64,000 bases of DNA from Collinsella sp. BA40 (lineage in GTDB: Bacteria > Actinomycetota > Coriobacteriia > Coriobacteriales > Coriobacteriaceae). The notes beneath the pieces are model-generated. The model saw nothing but the letters and a program-made list of their open reading frames with translations, made no database searches and had not been told where the DNA came from. Both the position numbers and the translations under genes were made by a program. Location: the NCBI RefSeq assembly GCF_008014645.1, contig NZ_VOWY01000002.1, forward strand, positions 172,328 through 236,327. Direction: 5' to 3'. Position 1 is the first letter of the stretch, and each line of letters starts with the position of its first letter. Positions 3,880 through 25,823 of this stretch are shown piece after piece.

Positions 3880-5355
3880 ATGAAGCACTTGAGAAAGATC
3901 GTCGCCGTTGTCGCTGCAACGGTGATCGGCGTCGCGGCGCTTATCGCCGCCCCCGCCCCCGCGCGCGCCGGCGCGGGCTCGCTATACATCACGTCATCGC
4001 ATGGTGGCGATGCGGCTGTCTACGATGCGTATCGCATCGCGGATGATGCCGCATTGCCCGATAACGCTCAATTTAATTGGCCTGGGCTTTCCGGCGTATC
4101 GCTCGACGGCTACGAAACGTACCCGGCGTACGACCCCGCATCTCCGAACTCTGCCCGGGATGGCCGCGCGTTGGTGGAGCGTGTGAGCGCAGACGTATCG
4201 GTGGACAACGCCGGCGTCCTCGCCCATGCGCTTGAGGGGTATGTGGTGCCCGGGGCCGCGCCGGTAGCGCGCGTGAAGGCTGATGGGCCTGCGGTTGCGG
4301 TACCTGACGGATGGTATCTGCTCCGGGCACATGGACGCCGCACGCTCTTTGCGTGGGTGGACGGCGGTCCTGTCGAGCTGGGCGATAAGTCCGATACCCC
4401 GGTGGTGGGCAAGCAGGTGAGCTCCGGCGCCGGCTGGGGCCGCTCGGCTGTTGCGGGCTCGGGCCGCGTCGTCTCCTTCCGCGTCGATGCCGCGCTGCCG
4501 CTGTCCATGGAGGCCGCCCGCGCCTATCCGCTCGCCATCGACGACTCCTGGGACGAGGGCCTCGTCCTCGATACCGATAGTATCCGCGTGGAGCTGCTGG
4601 CCAACGACGAGCCCGCCCGCGACCTGACGGACGCCGTCGAGGTCGAGGTATCCGATCGCTCTATCCGCGTGGGCTCCGATGATCTGCACGCCCTGGGCGC
4701 CGAGCCGGGCAACGCGCTGCGTCTCTCCTACAAGATGACCATCGCTCCCGGCGCCAAGGTCGGCGCCGCCGGCCTCTCCAACTCGGCCCATGCCGGCTAC
4801 GAGGCCTGGACGGGCCACTGCCAGACGCCGGCCGCCGCGGCCCGCGTCTTCGCGGCCAACCTCAAGCTCTCCAAGGTCGACGCCTCCGGCGCCCCGCTCG
4901 CGGGCGCCGTCGTCGCGATCCGTCGCGGCGGCGAGTGGTTGCACGCCGACGGTTCCTTCGGCGCCGAGTCCGCGCGCCTCGAGCTCGCCTCGGGCGAGGA
5001 CGGCGCGTTCCCCGCGCTGCCCGTGCTCTCGGACGGCTCCTACGAGGTGGTCGAGCTCTCCGCACCTAAGGGCTACCGCGCTGCCGATCCCGCCATCTTC
5101 CAGTTGGGCGTACACGCCGGCGAGGGTGACCTCACGCTTGACGCCTGGGCCTCCAAGCCGCTGCGCGTGGCCGGCGTGGACGCCGAGAGCGCCACGGCGA
5201 GCCTGGAGCTCGTGAACGAGAAGGCCGCCTCCGGCTGGCCCGGCTTCATCCCGCAGACCGGCGATACCGCTTGGTGGCTCGTTGCCGCCACGCTGGTCGT
5301 CGCTGGCGCCGCGGTTCTGGTGGCCGGTGCCCGCCGCAAGTGCCAGAGGGCGTAG
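3880..5355 (+). CDS. Minor pilin / SpaA-type wall-anchored pilus subunit
   Basis: 491 residues, exported and wall- or pilus-linked. A Sec signal peptide ends near residue 30 (PAPARA). The N-terminal part carries the YDAYRI-type start common to class C sortase pilins. A SpaA/Cna-B prealbumin-like domain begins at NLKLSKVDASGAPL and has the isopeptide E-box VVELSAPKGY. The C-terminus has the sorting signal IPQTG (from residue 457), a hydrophobic segment and a basic tail. ATG 3880 follows GAGGGG at 7-8 bases; a GTG at 3865 is a weaker alternative. It is first in an operon with a major pilin, sortase and tip adhesin, so a base or minor subunit role is likely (inference). The first sorting-signal residue is Ile instead of Leu. 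Confidence 0.85.
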   Translation: MKHLRKIVAVVAATVIGVAALIAAPAPARAGAGSLYITSSHGGDAAVYDAYRIADDAALPDNAQFNWPGLSGVSLDGYETYPAYDPASPNSARDGRALVERVSADVSVDNAGVLAHALEGYVVPGAAPVARVKADGPAVAVPDGWYLLRAHGRRTLFAWVDGGPVELGDKSDTPVVGKQVSSGAGWGRSAVAGSGRVVSFRVDAALPLSMEAARAYPLAIDDSWDEGLVLDTDSIRVELLANDEPARDLTDAVEVEVSDRSIRVGSDDLHALGAEPGNALRLSYKMTIAPGAKVGAAGLSNSAHAGYEAWTGHCQTPAAAARVFAANLKLSKVDASGAPLAGAVVAIRRGGEWLHADGSFGAESARLELASGEDGAFPALPVLSDGSYEVVELSAPKGYRAADPAIFQLGVHAGEGDLTLDAWASKPLRVAGVDAESATASLELVNEKAASGWPGFIPQTGDTAWWLVAATLVVAGAAVLVAGARRKCQRA

Positions 5356-5381
5356 GGGCGTCCTTCTATATACGGTGTCAG

Positions 5382-5406
5382 ACGCGGATCGTGCTGTATT
5401 CCGCGT
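5382..5406 (+). other. Hairpin between minor and major pilin genes
   Basis: ACGCGGA (5382-5388) and TCCGCGT (5400-5406) form a perfect 7-bp stem with an 11-base loop in the 100-base gap. A TATAAG-like hexamer at 5411-5416 could be a weak internal promoter. Either could set the expression ratio of the two subunits, but neither is proven. Confidence 0.3.
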
Positions 5407-5455
5407 GGCATATAAGGTTCGGTACATCACTATCTCGAAAGGGGAGAAATACGTG

Positions 5456-7075
5456 ATGGAGAAGTGCACGATGAATGGGTTGAAGCGCCGCGCCGCGGTG
5501 CTGGCCGTTACCGCCGCTCTGGGCGGTAGCGCGCTGCTGGGTGCCGCTGCACCCATGACCGCTTGGGCTGCCGGTGCGACCGGTACAGTGACGATCCACC
5601 CCGCTGCCGGCAACGAGAAGACGAGCTATCAGGCGTACCGTCTGTTTACCGCCGTGATCAATGACAAGGACAGCGCTGCTTCCAAGGTTGATTGGGATGC
5701 TTCGGTGGATGACGGTAAGAAGGATGCTCTCATCGCCAAGATCAACGAGCTCACCAAGAATGGCTATGACCAGTGGGTTGCCAACAAGGGCGACAAGAAG
5801 CTCGCTCAGAACGTGCTCGAGTACATCAGCGGGCAGATCACTGCTTCCGACAAGGTCGACATCAAGGGCCAGGGCTCGCTTACCGCTGGCACCTTCGGCA
5901 TGAAGCTTGCGACTTGGATCGCCAACGAGAGTGGCATTCAGCCCGTTGCCGAGGTCAAGCCCGACGCCGCCTTCACCAATGAAGAGGGCTACTACCTCTT
6001 CGTGACCAAGGCTGCTTCCGGCGCTGTTGCCACGTCCCCCATCTGGTTCCCGCTCGGTGGCCGTGCCAACGAGGTCTTCGAGAAGGCCAGCGTCCCCACC
6101 GTCGACAAGACGATGGGTGGCGCCGAGGCCGGTTCCGGCCAAATCGGCGAGGAGCTGCCGTTCGTCGTTACCGCCACGCTGCCGGGTAACTACAACTCCT
6201 ACAGCTCTTACGCCATGACCATCAAGGACACCCCCACCAACCTCGCTATCGTCGAGGGCTCGGTCGTGGTGAAGTCCGGCGATAAGACGATCACCAACGC
6301 CGAGGGCGTTTCCGTGAGCGTGACCGGCACCGGCATGACCGTGAAGATCAACGACCTTAAGAAGGCTGATCCCACTGCAACCAATGCTACAAAGGTTGTC
6401 GTCGAGTACAAGGCTAAGCTCACGCCCGCAGCCAGCAACAAGCCCGGCGCAAACGCGAACAAGGTCGAGTACGAGTACTCCAGCAACCCCGGTGTGACCA
6501 CCGAGACCATCACCACCGCCGATCCCGAGGGCGCTGTGCCCGTGTACACCTTCCTGCTGAACCTCTCCAAGAAGGACAAACACACGGATGTGAATCTGGA
6601 TGGTGCAGAGTTCATCATCAGGAACGAGGCTGGTAAGTATTACGACAAGGACGCAAAGACCTGGTCGCTCGACGAGGCCGCTGCCAAGGCCAAGCCGCTC
6701 ACCACGTCCAACGGTACCCTGTCTGTTATGGGCATGGACGAAGGCACCTTCACCCTCACCGAGGTCAAGGCCCCGGAGAAGTACGAGCTCCCCAGCAATC
6801 CCAGCGTCACGATCAAGGTGACTCCCGACTATAACTTCGACGGTACCCTCAAGTCGCTCGCCGTCGAGGCCAAGGGTGACATCGTGAGTGCCAAGGACGA
6901 GGTCGTTGCCGACAAGGCCGAGGGCACGCTGTCCGTCACCGCCGTGAACGACAAGAACGTTGCGCTGGCTATGACCGGTGCCGAGGGTGTTGGCATGGCT
7001 GGTGCCGGCGTCGTCGCGCTCGGCCTGGTGTGGTACGCCGTGCGCTCGCGCCGCGATCGCGCCAACCAGCAGTAA
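5456..7075 (+). CDS. Major pilin (backbone, isopeptide-forming) with LAMTG sorting signal
   Basis: 539 residues. A Sec signal peptide ends near residue 38 (TAWA). The mature protein starts TGTVTIHP and includes SYQAYRLF, typical of type-2 fimbrial/SpaA backbone pilins. PTVDKT carries the usual isopeptide Lys. A second domain, LLNLSKKDKHTDVNLDGAEF, ends with the E-box TFTLTEVKAPEKYE, and ANKVEYEYSSNP resembles the polymerisation region of FimA/SpaA pilins. The C-terminus reads LAMTG (504-508), a hydrophobic helix and RSRRDR. The motif has Ala where Pro is expected. ATG 5456 is chosen (AAAGGGGA about 10 bases upstream); GTG 5453 is adjacent. The next gene is a class C sortase, supporting its role as the polymerised shaft. 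Confidence 0.88.
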   Translation: MEKCTMNGLKRRAAVLAVTAALGGSALLGAAAPMTAWAAGATGTVTIHPAAGNEKTSYQAYRLFTAVINDKDSAASKVDWDASVDDGKKDALIAKINELTKNGYDQWVANKGDKKLAQNVLEYISGQITASDKVDIKGQGSLTAGTFGMKLATWIANESGIQPVAEVKPDAAFTNEEGYYLFVTKAASGAVATSPIWFPLGGRANEVFEKASVPTVDKTMGGAEAGSGQIGEELPFVVTATLPGNYNSYSSYAMTIKDTPTNLAIVEGSVVVKSGDKTITNAEGVSVSVTGTGMTVKINDLKKADPTATNATKVVVEYKAKLTPAASNKPGANANKVEYEYSSNPGVTTETITTADPEGAVPVYTFLLNLSKKDKHTDVNLDGAEFIIRNEAGKYYDKDAKTWSLDEAAAKAKPLTTSNGTLSVMGMDEGTFTLTEVKAPEKYELPSNPSVTIKVTPDYNFDGTLKSLAVEAKGDIVSAKDEVVADKAEGTLSVTAVNDKNVALAMTGAEGVGMAGAGVVALGLVWYAVRSRRDRANQQ

Positions 7076-7093
7076 CGGAAGCCATCGAGTGCA

Positions 7094-8059
7094 ATGGGGT
7101 ATCAGGCTCGGCATACGCGGTATGAATCCGGAGCGGCATCGCATGGCGATGGCGTTCGCCGTGATGCGGTGAAGCGACCCTGCTCGGGTCGCCGCCGGCT
7201 GCTGCCGGTATTGGTGATCGTGGTTGGCGTGCTGATGTGCCTGGCCCCCATTGCGACCGATCTGTATTTCCGCCTTACCACGGAGTCCGAGGTCACTCAG
7301 ATGACGGATACGGCGGGAACCGTGCCCTCGGAAGAGAAGGAGCGGCTGCTCGCCCAGGCGCGTGCGTACAACGCGCGCCTGGGCGGCTACGTCGATGAGA
7401 CCGCTGCGGGTGTTACCGATATCCTGCCCTATGAGGAGCAGCTGTCGCTGAATGGCGAAGAGGCTATGGGCTGGATCGAGATTCCGCGTGCCAACATCCA
7501 GATGAAGGTGTACCACGGCGTTGGCGAGCCCGCGCTCTCCGCGGGCGTCGGCCACCAGCCCGAGACGTCGCTGCCCGTTGGGGGCGCTCGCTCGCAGTGC
7601 TTCCTTACCGGCCATTCCGGTATGCAGCAGCACCGGATCTTCGACGGTATCCGCGCCCTCGAGGCAGGGGACGTGTTTGCTGTGCATATCCTCGATGAGG
7701 TCTTTGCCTATCGCGTGACCTCGTGGGAGATTCTCGATCCGGGTTCGGTTGACGTGACGCCCCAGGACGGCGATCGCTGCACGCTGGTTACGTGCACCAC
7801 CACTCCCGACGCGCTCAATCCCAAGGGGCGTATCGGCGTGAACGACAAGCGCCTGCTGGTATATGGAGAGCGCTGCGAATATGATCCGGCTGAATTCGAG
7901 CAGACGCAGCCGGATGTTTCGGCATATGTAAATGACAACACCAGGCCGGCTCTTGTGGGCGCCTGCCTGATCTTGGCATTTGCTGCCATGTTGCTTATTG
8001 GACGATGGATGCGCAGGACGGGCCGCGGCGGCTCGGCCGATCGCGCAGAGGAACGGTAA
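7094..8059 (+). CDS. Class C (pilin-polymerising) sortase
   Basis: 321-residue membrane transpeptidase that cleaves sorting signals and joins pilins through Lys side chains. Topology fits class C: an N-terminal membrane segment (LLPVLVIVVGVLMCLAP) and a second near the C-terminus (ACLILAFAAMLLIG). The catalytic triad is visible: His174 in TGHSG, Cys234 in TLVTCTT, and Arg253 in NDKRLLVYGER. The lid region has ILPYEEQL in place of a clear DP(W/F) lid motif. It lies 18 bases after the major pilin and 13 bases before the tip adhesin, so the genes are co-transcribed. The start is the first ATG of the frame; its ribosome site is weak and a shorter form is possible. Confidence 0.92.
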   Translation: MGYQARHTRYESGAASHGDGVRRDAVKRPCSGRRRLLPVLVIVVGVLMCLAPIATDLYFRLTTESEVTQMTDTAGTVPSEEKERLLAQARAYNARLGGYVDETAAGVTDILPYEEQLSLNGEEAMGWIEIPRANIQMKVYHGVGEPALSAGVGHQPETSLPVGGARSQCFLTGHSGMQQHRIFDGIRALEAGDVFAVHILDEVFAYRVTSWEILDPGSVDVTPQDGDRCTLVTCTTTPDALNPKGRIGVNDKRLLVYGERCEYDPAEFEQTQPDVSAYVNDNTRPALVGACLILAFAAMLLIGRWMRRTGRGGSADRAEER

Positions 8060-8072
8060 GGCGAGGTACCGT

Positions 8073-11000
8073 ATGAAGAACGAGAAGAAGCAGCTGGAAG
8101 CTCCGTGGCGCGTGGCGATTTCGCGCGCGATGGGTGCGGCCAAAGACGGCGCCAAGCGCTATGCTCGGCCCGCGCTGAGTGGCTTTTTGGCGCTGACCAT
8201 GGTGATCGGGTCGGTGCCCGCGCCCGCATACGCCGAGATGATGGACGAGGCGGCTCGCTCGATCGCGCTTATGGCGCAGGACGACGAGGACGCGCCGGCT
8301 GCAGCTGAGCGCGCGGATGATAAAGGCGCATCGACGGTTCAGGATACGAGCGAGCAGCCCGGCGCTGACGACCCGGGCGAGCGAGCCGCCGCAGATGAAC
8401 CTTCCGTGAGCGCTCCGGCGGCGGACGCTGCTGCCGATGTTGCTGCGGATGAAGCGCCTGCAGCGCTGTTTAGCGCAAGCGACGACCTTAAAGCCGTTAC
8501 CGTGGGCGGAGACGCGCTCGCCTCGCGTGCCGCCGCGGTCGACTCGCTCAAGGCCGTCGGTGTTTCGGCAAAGGACGCCGAAGAGGCTGCCGCCTCTGTA
8601 GATGCCGCCATGGATACCTTGCTGGCTCCCGCCGCCGGCAACCGCGCCACCGCGGAGGGTATTGTCTTGGAGTGGCTGAGCGAGGGCGACGTTCCCAGCG
8701 GTGACGCCAGCCAGCTCGTGTTCAAGCCGAGTGATGACGACGCGGTGTCCATGCGTTTGCGCCTCACCTACGCCATCATGGGCGAGCGCGAGCACCAGCC
8801 TGGCGAGGTTACCATCGTGGTGCCCGCGAACATGTTTATCGACCGCGCCGGCAAGCCCGAGGGCGGCATGGCGCTCGCAGTGCCGGCCGAGCCCGTCGAG
8901 ACGGCGGGCTGGAATTACCGTCTGGTCATGAACGGCAGCGTTGCCGAGTACCATATCGTGAACACCAAGCGCCTCAATGCCGCCACGCAGGGCTTTATCG
9001 ATTTCGAGATCAAGGACGTCGAGCCGATCACGCAGGTTGACATGAAGCCGAGCGCTCCGTTCGGGGTGAAGCTGCAGGTCGTTGAGTCCGACGGCTCGGA
9101 GAGCGCGTTTACCAGCAACGAACTCACCGCGGTGTTCGATACGCATGCCACGTTGAAGTACGCGACCAAGGGCGCGTCGGATAATCCGTACTACGTTGAT
9201 GCGGCGGATGAACGCGTGGCCATCGCGCACGCCGCTTTCCCCAAGGCCGAGGGCTTCGTGGTGGTGCCGTGGTACTTGAGCGCCCGCATCGATGCGAACC
9301 AGCCGTTCGGCCTTACGTTCAACGACCAGCTTGCCGGCACGCTGGAAGGCGTGATCCTGCACGAGAACGCGACCGACAATGGACGCGCGGTCGAATTCAA
9401 CCAGGGTGATGGACTGCTTTCCTTCCAGGTGGGCACCGTGCGACTGGAATCGGCCTATCCTGTGGAGCAGTTCGAGGAGAACGGCGAGTACGTTTTCAAG
9501 AACAAGGTGACCGCCGCGATTCGCGAGTCCGACGAGAGCCAGGACGGCACGCCCAAGCCCGAGCAGACCGATGATTACCTCGCCGAGCGGCGCTGGACGT
9601 TCCATAAGCCGCAGTTCGTCGATCCCAAGGACCTGTTCGAGCAGGTGCATATCGGTAACGACAACAAGGTGTATAGCGGTGACAGCTACATAACCCACGG
9701 TCGCGGCTCGGGTTCTCCTTACGGCGATCTTGACGCCTTGGATTATTCCTACGACGGCTACTACGGCCTGTACGGCAGGGGCCTCAATGAGCTTCGTGCC
9801 GGCCGCGACCTGGAGATCTCCTACACGTTCGGCATGGATGCCCGTGTGCTTCCGTGGACCTACGAGGCTCCTGGAGGAGCGGTCGAGGGCAACCCGTTGG
9901 GCGTGCTGGACAATTATAGTAAGAAACCGGTGACCGTTGCCGTTGAGGAGCAGGAGCTCCGCTTTGGCGATAAGGCGCTCGTCGCGGGCGAGGATTTCGA
10001 CTACGCCTCCGTTGCCCTTCCTCGAATGCCGAGGGTATACCGGGCGAAGGCGATCAACCTGAAGCCCGATGGCACGGTTGACTTCAGCCAGCGCAAGGAC
10101 GGTACGGTTTCATACGAGACCGATGATGTTGCCACGCATATTCCGACCGTCGGCATCGAGGTGAAGACCAAGGGCGACGCCGCTTGGCGTCCCTATGCCG
10201 TGGCGAACTGGACCAGCGGCAAGCTGGAAGTGAGCTTCGCCGATGGCGGCACGCAGTCCGATGCCGTGGTGGCGCTACCAGCGCAGACCGTGGGCGTGCG
10301 CTTCGCGAGCACCTCGAAGGCGGCCGCGCTGAGTTTTATGGGCCGCGTGGGCGTTCGCCTGAAGGCCGATGGCGCCTTGAAGCAGCTGGTTGAAGATGCG
10401 TTCGCGAAGAGCGAGAACCCCAGCCTCGAGCTTGAGGCGCTGGCTTCGATGGCCGTGAGCAACGCCGACGGGGCTTCGGTGTATAGCGATTCCGCATGGG
10501 CGACCGATCGCCTTATGGGATTCGTGGACGATATGCGCGCGTCGATGCGCACGGGAGTGAAGCGCTTCACGGCCGAGGATGTGGACAAGGCGAACAATCG
10601 CGTGAAGGTGACCTTCACGGCCCAGGTGCACAAGCGGAGCGTCGTGGAGGATGAGGACATCTACAAAGAGGCGCTCGAGAGCGGCGAGCTGAGCGCCGAG
10701 CGTTCGGGTGTGTGGTACGACCTGCTTCCCGCCGGCATGACGCCGGTGCTTGACTCGGTGAAGCTGCGCTGGGATGACAGCATTCGTTCGGTCAACGCGA
10801 TCGAGGACTTCCGCGGTACGGGTCGTACGCTGCTGGTGGTCGAGGCTGACCTTACGCCTTTCGCTCAGCCATATCAGGCCGAATGGGGTCAAACGAAAAC
10901 GACGTACTACGAAGATGTGCCGCGCATCACGTTCGACGCGTGGTACGGTTCGGGCGATATTGCCGATTTCGGCCGCGACTTCCATAACATCGCGATGTAT

Positions 11001-14000
11001 CGCTCGGCTAACGAGGAGATCGGCACTGTTGACGGCTATCGCGGCGAGGCCGACGACCCGCGCGGTACGCAGAACAAGGGGACCGCAGGCGCCTTTACGG
11101 GCGAGGATGAGTCGGTTCTGGACGCGCTTACCGATATCGACGGGGTACAGCCCGAACACAACAGCATGCTTTACGCCGGCGCCAACGGCGAGGTCGATCC
11201 GCTGGAGCACGGCAACGTGGGCCTTACCAAAGCGGTTTCGGTGAACGCCGAGGATACCTGGGGCACGGGTAACAACGGCGACAAGGCGCGCAACGTATAT
11301 GGCGGCGGCACGTATACGTACCGTCTCTCCACCACCACGTCGGATACCATGACCATGAAGGGCATCGTGCTGTACGACGCGCTTGAGAGCTATAAGCCGG
11401 GCGAGGATGCCGATGCCGCCGATAAGGAAGCCCCGCGTTGGCGCGGCACCTTCAAGAGCATCGACGTGTCGCAAATCGAGCGCCTGGGCGCGAAGCCCGA
11501 GGTGTACTACAGCACGGTGCGCTCGCAGGACGGCTGGGGCCCCGAGCTCTCCCAGGGCGACGGCGCCATCGTGGAGAACATCGATCAGACCGACCTCGGC
11601 AACACGGCGGTGTGGACCAAGACCACGCCCGCCGCGCTCAACGCCATGACGCCTGCCGAGCGCGAGCGGATTTCGGCTATCGCGGTCGATGCGACCAAGA
11701 AGGCCGACGGCTCCGAGTTCGTGCTTAAGGGTGGCGCGACGCTTTCCGCGTTCATTCGCATGGAGGGGCCGAGCATCGAGGAGGCCGATGCGCTCATCGC
11801 GTCCGGCGCACGTGCGCTCAACTGCGTCCACATGGCGAGCCAGGAGAAGATCGCTTCCGAGAAAGAATGGTCGGAGCGCCGCTTCGTGCGCGAGGGCTAC
11901 ACCACGGTGGGCGTCAAGCCGTACATTCTCTCGGTTTCCAAGACGTGGGAAGACGATGGCGACCGCGACGGCATCCGTCCTACCGAGGTGGGCATGCAGC
12001 TTGTGGCCAACGGCGAGGACGTTGCTGGCCAGCGCGTTATGCTGAACGAGGCGAACAGCTGGACGGCGAGTTTTAGCACCCTGCCGTATGTGGACGAGCA
12101 GGGCAAAACGATTATGTATACCGTGCGCGAGGAGCCCGTGGTCGCGGGCTACCGTGCAAGCGTGGCGTTCGACGGCGAGACGTTTGCGGTGACAAACGAG
12201 CATGGGCCGGAGCGCACGACGATCTCTGGCCATAAGGTCTGGAGCGGCGACAACGAGGACGTGCGCCCGCGCAGCATCGAAGTCGAGCTGCTTGCGAACG
12301 GCAAGCGTGTCGGCAAGCGCACGGTCCGCGGAAACGATTGGGCGTACTCGTTTGGGGACCTGCCCGTCTACGAGGGCGGTCGGCCCATCGATTACCAGAT
12401 TCGCGAGGTGGCGATCGGTAACGATGCCTACATCACGAGCGTCGAGGGCACCGATGTGGTGAATACCTATCATCCGTACGGCGACCTGGTGATTTCGAAG
12501 AACCTGAAGAACGAGGAGTCGCTCGTGAGCGACCCCGACTTTACGTTCAAGGCGACGTTCGAGCGCGATGGCGAGCCCGTGTTCGACGAGCTCTCCTACG
12601 AGGTGACGGGTCGTGGCATCGATCCCGCCGCGCCCCGCACGGGCACCATCGCTACGGACGGGACCTTTACACTGAAGGCCGGCCAGACCGCGCGTATCAA
12701 GGACGTGCCCGCAGGCGTGTCCTATACGGTGCGCGAGATCGAGCTGCCCGCCGGCTACTCTGCGGTGGGCTCTTCTACCGCCACCGGAACGATCAGCGCC
12801 AATACGGACAACGAGCGAAACTTTGTCAACGAGTACGAGGCGCGCGCGACCGTGCAACTGGGTGCTACCAAGCGCCTGGTTGGCAAGGCCATGAAGAACC
12901 GTGACTTCGTGTTCGAGCTGCGCGACGAGACCGGCGCGCTGGTTCGCACCGCTGCGAGCGGCAGACCCGGCGAGCCGGTGCGCGATGACGCGGGCAACGT
13001 CGTGACCGAAGCGAGCGTTCGCTTCGGTGCGCTGCAGTTCGACGAGAGCGATAGCGGCACGACCTTCGTCTACCAGATGACGGAGGCCGATGGAGCCATG
13101 CCTGGCATGCAGTACAGCGATGCGGTCTACACCGTGCGCATCACGCCGCACGACCAGGGCGATGGCACCATGACGACCGACGTGGTGATCGAGGATGCCG
13201 AGGGCGTTGAGCTGACGGCCGATCAGAAGCCGCTGTTCGAGAACGTGTATGTCGCTACGGGCGAGGTGGCCATCCAGGCTTTCAAGAAGCTGAAGGGCGG
13301 TAACCTTGCCGACGGCCAGTTCGCCTTCGATCTCGATGAGGTTGTAACCGCCGAGGACGGCTCGACGTCGCTTGTTTCCGTGCAGCGTGGCGTTACGAAC
13401 AATGCAAAGGGCGCCGTGGCGTTTGCTCCCATCGCGTTTGATCAGACTGCCATCGACTCCACGCATCTCTATGCGATCCACGAGGTCGATGCCGGCGATA
13501 CGTCGATTGAGTACGACGTGCATTATGCGCTCGTGCAGGTGAGCGTTGTGGACCAGGGCGACGGTACCCTGGGCTTCGATATGGCCTTTGACGGTTTGAG
13601 CTGCCCGTGCTTCGTGTGCGGCGGCGATGGTTCGCTGGAGGACGGTGCCGCTTGCGCTGCCTGCGACAAGGGCGAGATCACATCGAACGCCGACGACCTC
13701 ACCTTTGTGAACAGCTGGCGGCCCGCGGGCCTGGACATTCAGAAGACCTGGGCCGAGGGCTCTGGTGCCACCGACCCCAAGCATAAGTTCGAGTTCGAGC
13801 TCGAGCTCACCAACGAGCAGGGCGAGCCGGTCGAGGGCCTCGACTTCGAAGGCGCCCAGATCGTGCCCGTTGCGAATGCGCAGGGCGAGGGCGCCGCTGC
13901 CGGCGGCGCGGCCCCCGCGGTCGCCGCGGCCTCTGGCAAGGATGACGCACAGGCCGTCGACGAGCCCGCCAACAATCCCATCAGCGCGTTCGGCACCTGG

Positions 14001-17000
14001 GCGCTCGACGCCCTGGGCTCGCTGTTTGCTCCGCAGGAGGCCCATGCCGCCGAGCCGCGCGAGATCATTACGGGCGACGAAGGCGACTGGCACTGGAGCC
14101 TCGATACCGAGACGGGCGTGCTTACCATCGGTGGTACGGGCATCAGGCCCTCCAGGTGGTACAACAACGTGATCAACGCGGCGAGGAGCGTGGTCTTCGA
14201 GCCCGGCTCCGTCGCGGTGACCCTTGGCGGCAGCTACGGAGGCCTTTTCTACAAACTGGGGAATGTCACGTCGATTGACTTCACCGGTCTCGATACCTCT
14301 CAGGTGACGAGCACGGAGAGCTTGTTCGAGGGTTGCGCCAAGCTTACAACGATCAACTGGGCATCGTTCGACACGTCGAACGTCACCAGCATGGTGGAAA
14401 TGTTCTACCGCTGCAAAGCGCTGAAGACGCTCGACCTTTCGAAGTTCAACACTTCGAAGGTGACTAACATGAATCGGATGTTCGCGGACTGCTGGGAGCT
14501 TGCCGAACTCGACATCACCGGCTTTGACATGACGAAGGCCGCGAATGTAACAAATATGTTCTATAGCTGTAAGGCACTTACGGCCATAGACCTGTCGCCG
14601 CTTGCATCGATGGCAGCGACGGACGTGACCGGCCTGCTGTCGGGCTGCGCATCGCTGCAGACGGTTGACCTTTCGCCGCTGAGCGGCATCGCCCTCACGG
14701 GCGTGAGGTCGCTCTTCGCCGGCTGCTCGGGTTTGAAGACCATCGATTTGTCACAGCTGAACACCAAGAATGTTAAGAGCATGGACTCCTTGTTCGCTGG
14801 TTGCAAGAGTCTGGAATCGCTCGATCTCTCTCTGCTCGACACCAGTAGCGTGACGATCATGTCTAATATGTTTGGTGGTTGCACGGGCACGGTGCCCATC
14901 GATTTGTCGCCGCTCGACACCAGCAAGGTCGTGGACATGGGCAGCATGTTCTCTCGCGCGAACCTCGACATTTTCAATGTGTCGGCGCTCGATTTCTCAA
15001 GCGTGACCGATGTAGACCGGATGTTTAATGGAGCAACAAAGACTGGCACGTTCGTTCTTAAGATGGACGCCCCCAAGCTTGTAGAGGGGCGGGAGATGTT
15101 CCGAGAGACGAATCTGACCTCGGTGGACCTTACGTTGAACGCAGCATCGCTGGATTCGCTGTGGATGATGTGCTGTGATTCCCCGAATCTCGAATACGTC
15201 AAGCTACAAGGCGATGTGCCGAAACTGAGGACAATCAATCAGCTGTTCAGGGGTTGCCCGAATTTGAAGACTATCGATCTATCGCAGTTCCGTGCCACAA
15301 GCCTTGTAGACATGGCGAGCATGGCGAGGGGCTGTGGATCGCTGACACAGGTTGATCTGGGCGGTATCACGTCCGACAAGCTCGAAGATCTTGATATGGC
15401 GTTCCAGGGATGTAAGAAACTGGCGTCCATCGATCTTTCTCGTTTCAACACGGTGAGCATGCTGTCGATGGATCGAATGTTCCAAGACTGCGCGAGCTTG
15501 ACCGCGGTCGACTTCTCGCATTCAAGCATGCCCAAGATTTCTAGTTTCGATTACACGTTCTCGGGATGCACGGCTTTGACCTCCGTTGTGTTCCCCGAGA
15601 AGATGGACGGCGGCGGCCGCAAGATCAGTGGTTTCATCGAGACGTTCAAGAACTGCACGAGCTTGAAAGAGATCGACCTTTCCTTCCTGGGGCATGTTGC
15701 ACCGAGGTATTTCGATGACCCCATCGAGGGCTGCACGAGCCTGCAGAAGATCGATGTGTCGTCCATCGACACCTCGAATGTCTACATTGGTAACTTCGGC
15801 TACATTCAAAATAGTCAGCTGTACTCCGTCACGCTTTCCGAGCATTTCAACTTCAGGAAACCCGAGTGGATTAACATTCCGGATGATCCGTCTGACAGGG
15901 GCACGATGTGGATCAGGGTTGATGAGGGCGGAAACCCTGTTGGCCAGTCGTTGAGCACCGATGCTCTCGAGGAGAAATACCCCGGCTGCGGCGTTGGCAC
16001 GTACCAGTGGGATACCTTCAGGACCATCAAGTTCGAGCTGAATGGTGCTTCTGGTTCGGCGCCCGATCGCAAGGTGAATATCTCGGGTGACATCGAGTTC
16101 ACGGTTCCCGAGACCGTGTACCCGGACCACCGCTTGGTGGGTTGGACGTATAGGAACACGACGATCCCGGTTGGCAAGGACGGTGTTGCGCGCCTGTCCA
16201 AGGAAGAGGCGCAGAAGCTGTTCGGTAAGAACAAGACCATCACGCTGGTCGCTCAGTGGCAGGAGGTCTTCGAGATCACCGAGCCTTCGCGCGGTGTGTA
16301 TCGCTTCAAGGTCCCTGCCGGCCATGTGCTGCACCTCCCCGACGTCATTCCGTCGGGCACGAGCTACACCGTGCGCGAGCTCGGCGAGGCAGGCTATAAG
16401 CTGGTCGAGTCGTCTGGTACGACCGGCATGGTGAGCGCTGCGGCCGGTAACAAGCCGGTGGCTGCCTTCGTCAACGTCGAGCTGGACCCCAGCGAGGCTC
16501 CGTCCGCGCGCGCCGAGGTGCGCGTGGCGAAGATGCTCGACGGCGCTGCCGCTTCGGCTGCGGATGCCTTCCAGTTCGAGATGGCCGGCTACGACCCGGC
16601 GGCGAATGCCGACAACGGCTCTTGGACCGCTGCGGTTGCCGATGGCGGCCAGGTGCTCTTCCCGGCGCTCGCCTTCGATGCGGGTGACCTGGCGGGCGAG
16701 GCTTCGAAGCAGTTCGTCTACACGGTCCGCGAGGTGGCTGGCGGCAACGACGCCATTGCATACGACAACGCGACCATCACGGCAACCGTGACGGTTACGC
16801 AGGGTGCCGGCGGCGTGCTCTCGACGTCCATCGCGTATGCGAAGGATGATCAGCAGGTTGAAAAGCCCGTCTTCAATAACGTCACGAAGCCTGCGACACT
16901 CTCGATTTCCAAGGCCGTCGAAGGCGCGGCTGCGCCGGAGGCTCCCTTCTCGTTCCGCGTGCTGGTGAACGGCATGCCGTATGAAGGCGCCTATAGTGTC

Positions 17001-18572
17001 GACGGCGTTGTCGAGCAGGCAGCAAAGGGCGTCGTAAAGGTCGCGGGCGGTAAGACCGCGGTGGTCGAGGGCCTTCCCGCCGACGGAACGTACGCGGTGG
17101 AGGAGATAGATCTGCCTGCGGGCTGGAAGCTTACGGGTGACGCTGCTAACAAGGCGGGCCAGCTTGTTGCGGGCGCGACCGCAGAGCTGCGCTTTACGAA
17201 CACGTATGGCTTTACCGCTGCAGGGGCGGCGCAGCTGGTTGCTCACAAGTCGTTTGCGGGCGGCCGCCTTGCCGACGGCATGTTCTCCTTCGATCTGTAC
17301 AAGGGCGCATCTGTTGCTGACGGCGTTCTTGTGGGCAGTGCGGTGAACGGACCCGTTGACGTTGCGGACCAGGTGATGGGGCCGGATGGCACGCCGGTTG
17401 CCAATCCGTATAAGGGCATGGCCCCGGTCTATTTCGGCGAGCAGCTGTATACGGCGCCGGGTGTGCATGAGTACACCATGGTCGAGCGTGTGCCCGCTGA
17501 TGCGGTGAACGCCGAGGGCGTGCGCTATGCCGACGCGATGGACGAGCAGCGTGCCGCCGGTGGCTTCGCGCTCGACGGCGTGGTGTACGACTCCACGGAG
17601 CATCATGCGACCGTGACGGTGTCCGATAACGGCGACGGCGCCCTGGCGTGCGATGTTGCGTATGCGGCTGGCGCAGGCGCTGCGCTTGGCGCGGAGCCGG
17701 TGTTCAGGAACACGCCGCAGCGGGTGGGCCTCGAGCTCATCAAGAAGGTTGCCATCGAGCTGCCCGAGGGCAGTCCGGCGCGCGATGCGATCTTCACCTT
17801 CGATATCCAGCTGAAGGATGCCAGCGGCGCGCCGCTGCGCGATCAGGTGTATCGCATCATCGCTGCGGACGGCACGCAGAGCGAGCCCATGTTGGTGTCC
17901 GATGGCGGCACCATCGAGCTGCGCGCTGGCGAGCGGGCGCTGTGGACCGAGCTGCCGTTTGGCGCTTCGTATTCGATTGCCGAGCGGCCCATGGCTGGCT
18001 GGGTGATCGACGAGTCTGCAAGCAGCGGCGATCTTGCGGGCGCGCTTACCACGGTTGAGAAAACGGCATCGGTCACGGTGGCGAGTATCTACCGGGCGGA
18101 AGGCACGGTTCCGGTGCGAGCAACCAAGAAGTTCGATGGCGCGTTGGTCGACGACCAGTTCGTGTTCGATATCATCGAGGTCCGAGCGGGTGGCGAGCGC
18201 AAGGTGGTGGCCACGGCTCGAAACAAGGCCGACGGCTCCATCGATTTCGGCGAGCTTACGTATGTATTGGAAGATGTTGGCCATCGCTATGCATACGAGG
18301 TGATGGAGCGCGATCTTGGCGAAAAGGGCGTTGTGTACGACGACACGGTCTACAACCTTGAGGTCGTGCCGCAGGACAACGGAGACGGAACGCTCACATG
18401 CAATTGCACGATCATGTGCAATGGCAAGCGCGTCGACCGCATCGTCTTCACCAATAGTCGTACCCTTGAACTTCCCTTTACGGGCGGTGCCGGTACACAG
18501 CTGGTGGGACCGGCCGTCCTCGCTCTTGGCTGCATGCTGTATCTGGTTGATCGCCGCCGCAGGGCGCGTTAG
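8073..18572 (+). CDS. Giant pilus-tip adhesin with Cna-B/FctA repeats and an inserted BspA-type leucine-rich domain
   Basis: 3,499 residues. A long signal peptide ends near residue 54 (PAPAYA). Order: adhesin-like N-terminal region without an obvious thioester CxQ motif; Cna-B repeats about 1286-1586 (SKTWEDDGDRDG, HKVWSGDNED, SKNLKNEE); FctA-type pilin repeats about 1590-1725 and 1729-1880; the first half of a Cna domain about 1886-1931; a BspA/DUF285-type leucine-rich block about 2065-2575 (LDLSKFNTSKVTNMNRMF pattern); an InlB-B/Flg_new-like repeat about 2651-2729; the other half of the Cna domain about 2741-2806; alternating FctA/SpaA/Cna domains; then LPFTG from 3467, a membrane helix and RRRRAR. 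GCGAGG 7 bases upstream supports ATG 8073. Operon position and size suggest the tip adhesin; the ligand is unknown. Confidence 0.9.
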   Translation: MKNEKKQLEAPWRVAISRAMGAAKDGAKRYARPALSGFLALTMVIGSVPAPAYAEMMDEAARSIALMAQDDEDAPAAAERADDKGASTVQDTSEQPGADDPGERAAADEPSVSAPAADAAADVAADEAPAALFSASDDLKAVTVGGDALASRAAAVDSLKAVGVSAKDAEEAAASVDAAMDTLLAPAAGNRATAEGIVLEWLSEGDVPSGDASQLVFKPSDDDAVSMRLRLTYAIMGEREHQPGEVTIVVPANMFIDRAGKPEGGMALAVPAEPVETAGWNYRLVMNGSVAEYHIVNTKRLNAATQGFIDFEIKDVEPITQVDMKPSAPFGVKLQVVESDGSESAFTSNELTAVFDTHATLKYATKGASDNPYYVDAADERVAIAHAAFPKAEGFVVVPWYLSARIDANQPFGLTFNDQLAGTLEGVILHENATDNGRAVEFNQGDGLLSFQVGTVRLESAYPVEQFEENGEYVFKNKVTAAIRESDESQDGTPKPEQTDDYLAERRWTFHKPQFVDPKDLFEQVHIGNDNKVYSGDSYITHGRGSGSPYGDLDALDYSYDGYYGLYGRGLNELRAGRDLEISYTFGMDARVLPWTYEAPGGAVEGNPLGVLDNYSKKPVTVAVEEQELRFGDKALVAGEDFDYASVALPRMPRVYRAKAINLKPDGTVDFSQRKDGTVSYETDDVATHIPTVGIEVKTKGDAAWRPYAVANWTSGKLEVSFADGGTQSDAVVALPAQTVGVRFASTSKAAALSFMGRVGVRLKADGALKQLVEDAFAKSENPSLELEALASMAVSNADGASVYSDSAWATDRLMGFVDDMRASMRTGVKRFTAEDVDKANNRVKVTFTAQVHKRSVVEDEDIYKEALESGELSAERSGVWYDLLPAGMTPVLDSVKLRWDDSIRSVNAIEDFRGTGRTLLVVEADLTPFAQPYQAEWGQTKTTYYEDVPRITFDAWYGSGDIADFGRDFHNIAMYRSANEEIGTVDGYRGEADDPRGTQNKGTAGAFTGEDESVLDALTDIDGVQPEHNSMLYAGANGEVDPLEHGNVGLTKAVSVNAEDTWGTGNNGDKARNVYGGGTYTYRLSTTTSDTMTMKGIVLYDALESYKPGEDADAADKEAPRWRGTFKSIDVSQIERLGAKPEVYYSTVRSQDGWGPELSQGDGAIVENIDQTDLGNTAVWTKTTPAALNAMTPAERERISAIAVDATKKADGSEFVLKGGATLSAFIRMEGPSIEEADALIASGARALNCVHMASQEKIASEKEWSERRFVREGYTTVGVKPYILSVSKTWEDDGDRDGIRPTEVGMQLVANGEDVAGQRVMLNEANSWTASFSTLPYVDEQGKTIMYTVREEPVVAGYRASVAFDGETFAVTNEHGPERTTISGHKVWSGDNEDVRPRSIEVELLANGKRVGKRTVRGNDWAYSFGDLPVYEGGRPIDYQIREVAIGNDAYITSVEGTDVVNTYHPYGDLVISKNLKNEESLVSDPDFTFKATFERDGEPVFDELSYEVTGRGIDPAAPRTGTIATDGTFTLKAGQTARIKDVPAGVSYTVREIELPAGYSAVGSSTATGTISANTDNERNFVNEYEARATVQLGATKRLVGKAMKNRDFVFELRDETGALVRTAASGRPGEPVRDDAGNVVTEASVRFGALQFDESDSGTTFVYQMTEADGAMPGMQYSDAVYTVRITPHDQGDGTMTTDVVIEDAEGVELTADQKPLFENVYVATGEVAIQAFKKLKGGNLADGQFAFDLDEVVTAEDGSTSLVSVQRGVTNNAKGAVAFAPIAFDQTAIDSTHLYAIHEVDAGDTSIEYDVHYALVQVSVVDQGDGTLGFDMAFDGLSCPCFVCGGDGSLEDGAACAACDKGEITSNADDLTFVNSWRPAGLDIQKTWAEGSGATDPKHKFEFELELTNEQGEPVEGLDFEGAQIVPVANAQGEGAAAGGAAPAVAAASGKDDAQAVDEPANNPISAFGTWALDALGSLFAPQEAHAAEPREIITGDEGDWHWSLDTETGVLTIGGTGIRPSRWYNNVINAARSVVFEPGSVAVTLGGSYGGLFYKLGNVTSIDFTGLDTSQVTSTESLFEGCAKLTTINWASFDTSNVTSMVEMFYRCKALKTLDLSKFNTSKVTNMNRMFADCWELAELDITGFDMTKAANVTNMFYSCKALTAIDLSPLASMAATDVTGLLSGCASLQTVDLSPLSGIALTGVRSLFAGCSGLKTIDLSQLNTKNVKSMDSLFAGCKSLESLDLSLLDTSSVTIMSNMFGGCTGTVPIDLSPLDTSKVVDMGSMFSRANLDIFNVSALDFSSVTDVDRMFNGATKTGTFVLKMDAPKLVEGREMFRETNLTSVDLTLNAASLDSLWMMCCDSPNLEYVKLQGDVPKLRTINQLFRGCPNLKTIDLSQFRATSLVDMASMARGCGSLTQVDLGGITSDKLEDLDMAFQGCKKLASIDLSRFNTVSMLSMDRMFQDCASLTAVDFSHSSMPKISSFDYTFSGCTALTSVVFPEKMDGGGRKISGFIETFKNCTSLKEIDLSFLGHVAPRYFDDPIEGCTSLQKIDVSSIDTSNVYIGNFGYIQNSQLYSVTLSEHFNFRKPEWINIPDDPSDRGTMWIRVDEGGNPVGQSLSTDALEEKYPGCGVGTYQWDTFRTIKFELNGASGSAPDRKVNISGDIEFTVPETVYPDHRLVGWTYRNTTIPVGKDGVARLSKEEAQKLFGKNKTITLVAQWQEVFEITEPSRGVYRFKVPAGHVLHLPDVIPSGTSYTVRELGEAGYKLVESSGTTGMVSAAAGNKPVAAFVNVELDPSEAPSARAEVRVAKMLDGAAASAADAFQFEMAGYDPAANADNGSWTAAVADGGQVLFPALAFDAGDLAGEASKQFVYTVREVAGGNDAIAYDNATITATVTVTQGAGGVLSTSIAYAKDDQQVEKPVFNNVTKPATLSISKAVEGAAAPEAPFSFRVLVNGMPYEGAYSVDGVVEQAAKGVVKVAGGKTAVVEGLPADGTYAVEEIDLPAGWKLTGDAANKAGQLVAGATAELRFTNTYGFTAAGAAQLVAHKSFAGGRLADGMFSFDLYKGASVADGVLVGSAVNGPVDVADQVMGPDGTPVANPYKGMAPVYFGEQLYTAPGVHEYTMVERVPADAVNAEGVRYADAMDEQRAAGGFALDGVVYDSTEHHATVTVSDNGDGALACDVAYAAGAGAALGAEPVFRNTPQRVGLELIKKVAIELPEGSPARDAIFTFDIQLKDASGAPLRDQVYRIIAADGTQSEPMLVSDGGTIELRAGERALWTELPFGASYSIAERPMAGWVIDESASSGDLAGALTTVEKTASVTVASIYRAEGTVPVRATKKFDGALVDDQFVFDIIEVRAGGERKVVATARNKADGSIDFGELTYVLEDVGHRYAYEVMERDLGEKGVVYDDTVYNLEVVPQDNGDGTLTCNCTIMCNGKRVDRIVFTNSRTLELPFTGGAGTQLVGPAVLALGCMLYLVDRRRRAR

Positions 18573-19682: not shown

Positions 19683-22600
19683 CTACTGCTTGCGGCGACG
19701 GAACAGGCCGGCGAGGGCGGCGGTGAAACCGCCGGCGCCGAGCAGGCCTGCAATTGCGGTGGCGTCGCCGGTCTGGGCAAGGTTGCCGTTGCCGCCGGAG
19801 CCGTTGCTACCGGTACCGCTGCCGGAGCCGCTGCCGTTGCCGGAGCCGCTGCCGCTGCCAGAGCCGCTGCCGCCCTGCTCGGGCGTGTTGGGCTGCTCGG
19901 GCTGCGGCTGCTCGGGATCGGGCTGGCCGGTGGGCTCCTTCTTCAGCCCGTCGATCGCGTCGGCAAGCGCCTTGGCGGCATCGTCGAGGTCGGCCTGCGT
20001 GGTGGACGTGGCGGCGTGGACCTTCTCGGCATCCGCCAGGGTCTGCTCAAGCTGCTTCCAGCTGTCGGCCGTGTAACCTTCGGGCGCAAGCGCCTGGGCG
20101 CGCGCGATCACTTCGGCCAGTGCGGTGCGGTCGAGCACGTGCTGCTCGAGCTTCTCGATAGCGGCGTCGAGCTCGGCTGCCTTCTTGTCGAGGTCGGCCT
20201 GGCTGATCTTGTTCACATCGACCTTCGCCACGGCGTCGCGCACGGCGGCGAACTGCTTCCATGCATCCTTGTCGTAGCCGATCTCGTCGAGCGCCTGTGC
20301 GCGGGCCACGCCGGCCTCCCAGGCGGTCGTGTCGATAACGACGACGCTCTGGGTGAAGGTCTCGGTCGCGGCCTCAAGCGCTGCGGCGGCCTCTCCCAGC
20401 TTGGCGGGGTCGTTGGCGTGGTCCGTCAGGGCCTTCTTGGCGGCATCGATGCTCACCGTGAGGGCATCGGCGGCAGCCTGCGGGTACTGGCCGTTGAAGT
20501 CGCCCACGGTGGCGCCGTCGAGCAGCTTGGCGGCGGCGTCGATGGCAACCTGCATGCGGTCGCGGGCGTCAAGCGAGCTGCTTGCGCTTTCGAGCGCGGA
20601 CTTGAGGGCGGCGGTCGCCTCGTCGAGCTGCGCCTGCGTCACATCGCCGTAGCGATCGGCCACGGACTTGGCAGCCTTGATGGCTTCGCCGAGCGACGAC
20701 GCCAGGTCCTGGTGGCCGTTCTTCTCCAGCGCGCCCCTGAGGGCCTCGGCGCGGTCGATGGTGCGGTACAGCGGGACTCGGTCGATGGTCACGAACGCGG
20801 TGTTCCAGAACGTGCGCTCGGCCACCTTGAGCTGCGTCGTCCACGTGGCGGCCTCGGCCGAGTTCATGCCCTGCTCGATGGCGGCCTTGGCCTCGTTGAC
20901 CTTGCCCATCAGCAGGTCGCGGGCATCGGCGCGGTAGTTGCCGGCGAACTTGCCGAAGGTGAGCTTGCCAAGCTTCTTCTCCAGGCCGGAGATGTAGCTC
21001 GAGAGCTCGGCGGTACCGTCTGCCTGGTACAGGTAGACCTCGTTGAGGGTTACATCGCCCTCGTTGAGAATGTTGATGCGCACGGCATTCACCAGCACGG
21101 CCTCGCGCAGGCGCGCGAGGATCTCGCCGGCAACGCGCTTGTTGGCGGAGTAGTCGGCGATCTGCTTCCAGCTGTCCTCGGCACCGTCCTGGCCGGGCAC
21201 GAGGCCCTCGACGGTGAATCGCAGCGGCTGCTGCAGCGGTTGGAACAGCAGGCCGATGGCGTTGATGTCGCGCGCCTTCTCGAAGGTGAAGGTGAGCTGC
21301 TTGTCGGCCGCGGCGGACAGCGTGACGCCCGTGGCGGGATTGCCGTCCTTCAGCGCATCGAGTTTGTCCTGGGCGAGTGCGGAGCCCTGGGCGGCGCTCA
21401 CGGTTGCGTGCGACGCGGCGTTATCGGGCGTGCTGTACACCTCGATCTCGCGGACGAGCGGCCATGCCTTCTGGCCGGACGACGGGATGCGGGCATCCTT
21501 GATATCCATGCGGATGGATTTGACGGCGCGGCCCACGGGCACGTTGATCTCGATGCCCTGCTCCTTCTTGAGGTCCTCGGCGCTGCGGGAGTACACGGTG
21601 GTCTTCTCGCCGGCGGCGTTGGTCACCACCAGGTCGAACTGCATGCTGCGGTCCTTCTGGCCCTTCTCGAAGCACAGGCGGATGGAGTCCACGTAGCGCT
21701 CTTCGGGCAGGTCCAGGTTGAACCACGCGGGCACGGCGCCGTTGTTGGAAACCCAGGCGGTATCCTTGCCGTCTACCAACGCGGCCTTATCCTCGGGCGC
21801 GGGCTTGGTCGCGGAGGAGGTGATGGTGGCGGTGGCGGCGATGTTGGCGCCCGTCATGCTCTGGCGCTCCTCCTGGAGCAGGTCGAGCTCGGCCAGCGCG
21901 GGCCAGGCGGTGCCGCCCACGGAGCCCACGAAGTCCACGCGCACGGCTTTGACCTCGTAGCCCAGGTCGGCGGTGTATGCCTTCTCCAGGCTGCCGGCGT
22001 TGTTGGACTGGTCGACGAGTACGCGCTCCTCGTTGTTCGGCAGGATCGCGGTGACCTTGAACTTGAACTGGCGGCCGGCGTCCTCGAACAGCAGGCGCAC
22101 GCGGTCCACGCGCTGCGGCTGGCTCAGGTCGACCCGGTACCAGTTGGGATCGCTGCCGTTACCGACCCACAGGGTCTTCTCGTCGCCGTCGATGCCGGCG
22201 TTGAGGTCGCGCCCGGGTTCGGTATTCTGCGCCGACGCCTTCGCGCCCCGCGACAGGTTCTTGTAGCTCACGGTGGGCGCGTTGGCCGCCATGACGCTCA
22301 GCTCGTAGATGCCGGTGAGGTTTTCTCCGTCGGTGGAGTTCACCTTGAAGCGCATCTTGCTCGCCAGCACGTCGCAGGTGATCTCGTTCTTCGAGCTCAC
22401 ATTCTGCGCCGTGCTCTCGCCGACCTTCACCCACTCGTCGCCCACCAGCGCGGTGATCTCGTAGCGCAGGGGGAAGTCCGCGGCGATCTGCTGCAGCGTG
22501 ATGCCAGCGCCCTTCACCGCGTAGGTGCCGCCCAGGTCGATCTCGAGCGTGGCCTCCTGCTTGCCGGGCGTGGTCCAGCCGGAGTCGGTGTTGCCGTCGG

Positions 22601-25499: not shown

Positions 25500-25823
25500 G
25501 TAGTGTCCTTTGTTCGATGCCCCGCCCCGTGGCGGGGTGTCCAATATGGCCCGTACCTGCAGCGATGCTGCAAGCTAGGTGCGACTCGGCAGAATCGCAC
25601 ATAACGAACTATTTTACGGTGCAACCTACTGGGAAATGGGGGAGAAAAAAGGACGAGAGGACCCGTTTGCTCATGCAAGGCCGCCGTGTTGGGGCGCATG
25701 TTGCGAGGGCGGGCATGAGGGCGTCGGCGTGCGCGCGGGCGCGGGCGCACGCAGGTGGAGCACTCGCTTGCGAGAAGTTCTGGTGCACGCGCCCCAAGTG
25801 CCGCCCGGGGCGGGCGCGCGCCG
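25500..25823 (-). other. Leader of the GH89 gene and gap to the cysteine desulfurase
   Basis: On the minus strand a 7-bp G/C hairpin (25520-25537) sits about 20 bases before the GH89 start, with the ribosome site AAAGGA at 25506-25511. An AT-richer stretch near 25600-25640 is the likely promoter zone, but no hexamer pair is convincing. The rest (25650-25823) is G/C-rich with no gene seen. Confidence 0.4.

Follow-up and report, generated by a model that had tools for sequence, protein, structure and literature searches.

Domains of the Cna fold tolerate inserted adhesion domains in their loops, with vWFA, thioester and CnaB domains as cargo, according to PMC12617251. That paper also describes large inserts between the bond residues of two surface proteins. 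In RrgA of Streptococcus pneumoniae, a large domain lies within a CnaA-like domain, and in Spy0125/Cpa of Streptococcus pyogenes, a large domain lies within a CnaB-like domain, with a thioester domain as the cargo (PMC12617251). A related arrangement with a different cargo is predicted in a 64,000-nucleotide stretch of the Collinsella sp. BA40 genome (contig NZ_VOWY01000002.1, positions 172,328 to 236,327; hereafter the window, numbered from its first letter). In this arrangement, a BspA-type leucine-rich repeat (LRR) module lies between the apparent halves of one DUF7601 domain in a 3499-residue LPFTG surface protein, here called the giant protein.

The reading that we favour, with a probability of roughly 0.78, is that a BspA-type LRR and an InlB-like unit are held between the halves of a single DUF7601 domain, which is predicted to reclose around them and is likely locked by an isopeptide bond linking Lys 1891 to Asn 2801. 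The module would then be a force-sheltered side-arm adhesin. The split domain is the second of the four DUF7601 copies in the giant protein. Its parts, the inserted module and the intact copies are as follows (pLDDT, predicted local distance difference test score).

13728..13859, + strand: half A of the split DUF7601 domain, residues 1886-1929, matched by Pfam and by our own profile; presumed isopeptide Lys 1891 at 13743-13745
13860..13985, + strand: Ala/Pro-rich linker, residues 1930-1971, predicted to be disordered; pLDDT <50 at residues 55-115 of the modelled slice
13986..14048, + strand: signal-peptide-like stretch ending in AHA, residues 1972-1992, assessed by motif counts, distance to the LRR opening and hydrophobicity
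14088..15992, + strand: BspA-type opening and DUF285/LRR_5 solenoid, residues ~2006-2640, with profile matches at 2057-2593
16041..16271, + strand: InlB-like unit, residues 2657-2733, matched by our own profile, with no Pfam match
16284..16475, + strand: half B of the split DUF7601 domain, residues 2738-2801, matched by Pfam and by our own profile; presumed catalytic Glu 2769 at 16377-16379 and bond-forming Asn 2801 at 16473-16475
12468..12842, + strand: intact DUF7601 copy 1, residues 1466-1590, used as the yardstick; 126.1 bits with our own profile, AlphaFold pLDDT 86.4
16893..17207, + strand: intact DUF7601 copy 3, residues 2941-3045, an empty slot; 72.1 bits with our own profile
17730..18098, + strand: intact DUF7601 copy 4, residues 3220-3342; 65.5 bits with our own profile

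The two flanks of the insert match different parts of Pfam DUF7601 (PF24547, 116 positions). Profile positions 3-36 are matched by window positions 13680-14090 (15.9 bits, E 0.02) and profile positions 50-114 by window positions 15900-16520 (21.6 bits, E 3.5e-4). Taken jointly, the two matches run through consecutive sections of a single profile in the right order, and the flanks are read as one domain. In a separate 125-column profile built from intact copies, half A matches columns 6-49 (11.3 bits) and half B columns 61-121 (22.5 bits), with a gap of 808 residues; the other three copies in the giant protein cover nearly all 125 columns. DUF7601 is described in PMC12617251 as a predicted isopeptide domain with Lys, Glu and Asn. 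These residues fall at columns 11, 90 and 121 of our profile and are 99%, 88% and 97% conserved in 411 intact domains. In the giant protein, the presumed triad flanks the gap, with K1891 upstream and E2769 and N2801 downstream. The models predict three strands in half A and seven in half B, a sum of ten, as in the intact copy. A CnaB-like fold is found for the predicted model of the intact copy, and the strand order in the model of the split region fits.

The sequence-only reading had taken residues 1886-1931 and 2741-2806 as one interrupted Cna-type domain. The complementary profile halves agree with this and the residue numbers are right. The codon of the first half A residue starts at 13728, not 13729, and by its profile matches the host is a DUF7601 (CnaB-like) domain, a more exact label than Cna/SpaA. 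That reading had also named two findings that would speak against it. The first, that each half is a separate complete domain, is not what was found: half A has the Lys and neither Glu nor Asn, half B has the reverse, and the strands add up as above. The second, that no insert-free version exists, is likewise contradicted, as three relatives (P0012, P0028 and P0029) are insert-free at the equivalent position.

The 808-residue insert contains the disordered linker, the signal-peptide-like stretch, the BspA/DUF285 leucine-rich solenoid and the InlB-like unit. DUF285 is matched with an E-value of 1.5e-71 (window 14031-16194) and LRR_5 is also matched between the halves; both the repeat profile and the fold are those of a BspA-type LRR (DUF285/LRR_5). 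The roughly 500 residues of DUF285 repeats that were originally reported agree with the profile matches to the LRR at residues 2057-2593, and the signal-peptide-like stretch and BspA-type opening are present in the translation as quoted. No Pfam family matches the InlB-like unit at E up to 1 (window 15990-16290), so that it does not qualify as PF09479 (InlB B-repeat/Flg_new). Because of this missing match the unit is labelled InlB-like only, and the InlB-B-like repeat of the original reading stands by eye and through relatives that carry PF09479.

Split domains recur among the relatives. The sample comprises 121 proteins: the giant protein and the 120 homologues that were listed, out of 333 identified when 2415 candidates were scored; because these were picked by likeness to the giant protein, the counts are not natural frequencies. 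DUF7601 is intact 415 times in 110 of these proteins and occurs as 44 split pairs in 32. An LRR is present in 38 of the 44 inserts, which then span 368-1789 residues, and 36 of these 38 also contain the InlB-like unit. Of the six remaining inserts, five are short (96-232 residues) and the sixth belongs to a pair that is probably spurious. This pair, in P0036, has a gap that by eye is other Cna-type text; it is counted within the 44 and was left out of the tree and the slot counts. Lys, Glu and Asn are retained in 43 of the 44 splits, the exception having Asp for Asn. When breaks are allowed anywhere in the domain, 42 splits are recovered: 32 at columns 50-59, three in the 30s, six in the 40s and one in the 60s. 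By profile position, the breaks are clustered in one hairpin loop. The same break test gives four splits in FctA (gaps of 109-137 residues) against 1327 intact domains, and no split among 220 intact Cna_B domains. As an order control, N-then-C neighbours number 44 and C-then-N neighbours 14; the latter are assumed to be successive split domains and were not each checked.

LRR-filled DUF7601 domains are found in 31 of the 121 proteins: the giant protein and P0002-P0024 (less P0025/P0026), P0027-P0029, P0031, P0034, P0038 and P0043. These relatives share the nested architecture of the giant protein and differ from it in which slot is filled (second, third or both) and in LRR length. In 30 of the 31, the first copy is intact and at least three DUF7601 copies are present. 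Within these 30, an LRR fills the second DUF7601 of 27 proteins, and three (P0012, P0028 and P0029) have it empty; the third is filled by an LRR in nine and by a short insert in three, and contains nothing in 18. Empty slots are under-counted here because proteins with no LRR insert at all were left out of the slot table. The empty second domains align across the break site with the filled ones. The second and the third domain are filled, or left empty, separately, and therefore insert-free versions exist. This pattern suggests that the DUF7601 loop is a reusable socket for adhesins. Homologues listed with vWFA (PF00092/PF13519) fall outside the 32 proteins with split DUF7601, according to precomputed Pfam lists and with no separate test. 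Short inserts in the same loop are present in P0014 (4079-4174), P0018 (4160-4292), P0019 (3550-3781) and P0022 (4053-4198); they are mutually similar and CUB-like by eye, and the only Pfam match among them is a PF09479 piece in P0019.

Several observations weigh against nesting or its proposed consequences. Each half is singly under the 27-bit Pfam cut-off, while the intact copies are far above it. Fold searches with the whole split-region model (predicted template modelling score 0.65) return LRR folds only, and closure of the halves is not seen; because host packing was not visible there, the intact copy was modelled instead. C-part matches (108) outnumber N-part matches (49), leaving 64 C-parts and 5 N-parts unpaired, and C-part matches alone mean little because 64 of the 108 have no preceding N-part. 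No insert-free version occurs in the exact family P0001-P0011, the empty domains at the equivalent position being in more distant proteins. No ligand, bond or pilus is observed; closure of the domain, its bond and the binding of a ligand are all predictions.

If the favoured reading is correct, halves A and B would close around the module into one DUF7601 domain, whose first and last strands would be fastened together by the Lys 1891-Asn 2801 isopeptide bond. By analogy with RrgA and Spy0125, because the bond would join these strands, a pull along the stalk would run through the bond and bypass the LRR. The module would project about midway along the protein, and for that reason is better described as a side arm on the stalk than as the pilus-tip display proposed earlier. 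An alternative, unlikely in our estimate, accepts the nesting and regards the module as a spacer, shield or variable decoy, not as a ligand-binding adhesin. It draws on the lack of a known ligand, on the wide variation in LRR number, as seen in the lengths of the LRR inserts, and on one family copy that has a stop inside the LRR. Against it, BspA-type LRRs are usually considered to be surface binding modules. The inserts known in Cna folds are also mostly adhesion domains (PMC12617251).

On the favoured reading, a secreted BspA-type gene would have been captured in frame long ago, together with the end of its signal peptide, and would since have been inherited, with gains or losses along the way. 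A capture late in this lineage, with the module as a passenger that has no settled role, is disfavoured and improbable. It would fit the fall of guanine plus cytosine (GC) content to 0.55 in the LRR and the patchiness of close homologues, which occur in 3 of 65 genomes of the family. In the LRR, third-position GC is 0.744 and first-position GC 0.471, where the larger flanking parts have 0.758-0.811 and 0.634-0.690, respectively; because most of the drop lies at codon position 1, a recent foreign origin is not clearly indicated. All four copies in the three genomes, including that of the giant protein, are split at this site, as are P0001-P0011. Of the 7992 candidates scored in the insert search (0.55-1.75x the insert length), 6556 matched, and many of these are annotated as BspA-family surface proteins; the best match among the 120 fetched, the stand-alone protein P0144, is only 33% identical over 620 columns.

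In the host-domain tree, 39 of the 43 non-spurious splits and 148 of 426 intact domains are included (4 and 278 were dropped by an identity filter). Split and intact states require 12 changes, where 20 shuffles give 33-39, and LRR against the rest requires eight. In this tree, which has few columns, is poorly resolved and does not distinguish gain from loss, the split domains are clustered and do not form one clade. Seven proteins have two LRR inserts each; of these 14 inserts, 13 are closer to an insert of another protein than to their own partner, the exception being the first insert of P0027. The capture seems to be old and shared across a protein family. The proposal that an independent secreted BspA-like protein was captured keeps its basis in secreted stand-alone relatives, one of them in the same genome, and in the signal-peptide-like stretch, whose distance upstream of the LRR opening hardly varies. 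The idea of a one-off event is not supported, in view of the 31 LRR-filled proteins and the codon-position GC.

The stand-alone relative in the same genome (L007, 4959-10748, - strand) is a secreted DUF285 protein of 1929 residues with TPHxxxIxWLA-type repeats at its end. A homologue of the giant protein (L044, G027 contig 10), one of the four family copies, has a TGA inside the LRR, which leaves open frames of 2474 and 1080 codons. P0139 and P0166 consist of a signal peptide, then the LRR cassette, then the second half only of DUF7601; they may be ancestors, derivatives or fragments.

The stretch before the LRR also bears on how the arm is built. If its signal-peptide-like site were cut, the LRR would have a free N-terminus and the host isopeptide bond would hold the two pieces of the chain together. 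Of the 38 pre-LRR stretches, which total 6701 residues, 22 contain a strict motif; the other 114,864 residues of these proteins give 16 matches to it. A slightly wider motif lies 12-19 residues ahead of the opening in all 15 inserts with a recognised opening. Such a nicked arm is nevertheless improbable. The pre-LRR stretch is less hydrophobic than the N-ends of the proteins (median maximum 1.26 against 2.38) and has 0 to 7 charges per 20 residues, on account of which it is read either as the eroded relic of a signal peptide or as an amphipathic helix. The giant protein had been inspected before the motif was chosen, near-copies make up seven of the 15 inserts, and the strict motif is absent from 16 of the 38 stretches. 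In stand-alone proteins, the median distance from the true signal peptide to the LRR opening is 81 (n=10), obtained with a crude cleavage rule that gives no reliable distance; by eye, the opening directly follows the signal peptide only in P0144 and in the protein from the same genome. The boldest version, in which DUF7601 is a dedicated, reusable socket, with one hairpin loop in two successive stalk domains taking up whole secreted modules (LRR, InlB-like and short ones that are CUB-like by eye), and each LRR is a nicked, isopeptide-held arm with a free N-terminus, a natural split Catcher/Tag display, is very doubtful.

The least probable alternative, in which each flank is a small unit of its own or a fusion scar and the LRR stands in line with the other domains and under load, agrees with the sub-cut-off halves and the unseen closure, but is contradicted by profile halves that are complementary and in order, by bond residues divided between the halves in 43 of 44 splits, by strand counts that sum to the intact copy and by empty versions that align across the site.

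The giant protein is the last gene of a pilus-type locus at window positions 3883-18572, which has the following order.

3883..5355, + strand: putative minor pilin; Pfam SpaA, IPQTG-type end by eye
5453..7075, + strand: putative major pilin; Pfam SpaA and GramPos_pilinBB
7094..8059, + strand: pilus-type sortase; Pfam Sortase, E 5.5e-18
8073..18572, + strand: giant LPFTG surface protein, 3499 residues, putative pilus tip subunit; Pfam FctA x5, DUF7601 x4, Cna_B x2 and DUF285 x4 stretches

The ATG at 8073 was chosen as the start of the giant protein; the reading frame is uninterrupted between 8073 and 18569 and extends upstream as far as 7980. By eye, the protein begins with a signal peptide and ends with ELPFTGG and a hydrophobic tail; it is apparently anchored to the cell wall. 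Its domain order at the Pfam cut-off is ~1280 residues with no match, two Cna_B domains, then alternating DUF7601 and FctA domains. The LPFTG signal, the pilus sortase and the two pilins upstream are those expected of a sortase-pilus tip subunit, a role that we infer from the locus only. The very tip would then be the N-terminal 1280 residues, which have no assigned family and are possibly the true adhesive head. This region (residues 1-1280, window 8073-11900) has no Pfam match above the cut-off and is conserved in the closest relatives. In the FctA domain immediately before the split DUF7601 domain, there is a Cys cluster, CPCFVCGGDG...CAACDKG (residues 1844-1867, window 13602-13673), which by eye resembles a DnaJ-type zinc finger; its four Cys columns are nearly invariant in 12 relatives. 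No solved structure was matched by sequence in the FctA/half-A stretch. A large secreted protein adjoins the locus (window 19683-25544, - strand), which we take by eye to be GH84-type beta-N-acetylglucosaminidase-like, with FIVAR-like repeats and an LAQTG end.

If the favoured reading is true, DUF7601, a Pfam domain of unknown function, gains a role as a repeated docking site. Long pilus proteins would have a way to gain adhesins with no load on them, and a natural covalently closed loop would be usable for display engineering.

The cargo of RrgA is a vWFA domain. That of the giant protein is neither vWFA, thioester nor CnaB but DUF285/LRR, so that the giant protein would work like RrgA and Spy0125 but belong to neither family. 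In the openly licensed PubMed Central literature, as judged from titles and the starts of abstracts, no LRR nested in a Cna fold and no reused pair of sockets was recognised. Stand-alone BspA-family surface proteins (DUF285/LRR_5) have their own signal peptide, whereas the module of the giant protein is nested in a pilin domain. RrgA, as described in PMC12617251, and the giant protein are alike in that an adhesion-type insert lies between the isopeptide residues of a tip-pilin stalk domain, by sequence in the giant protein. They differ in that the host in RrgA is CnaA-like and has no LRR, while the host in the giant protein is DUF7601 (CnaB-like) and has one. Spy0125/Cpa differs in its thioester cargo, where the giant protein has an LRR and an InlB-like unit and its relatives have two such sockets. 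Domain insertion into a Cna fold is thus already known; what appears new, within the literature covered, is the LRR class of cargo and the reused pair of sockets.

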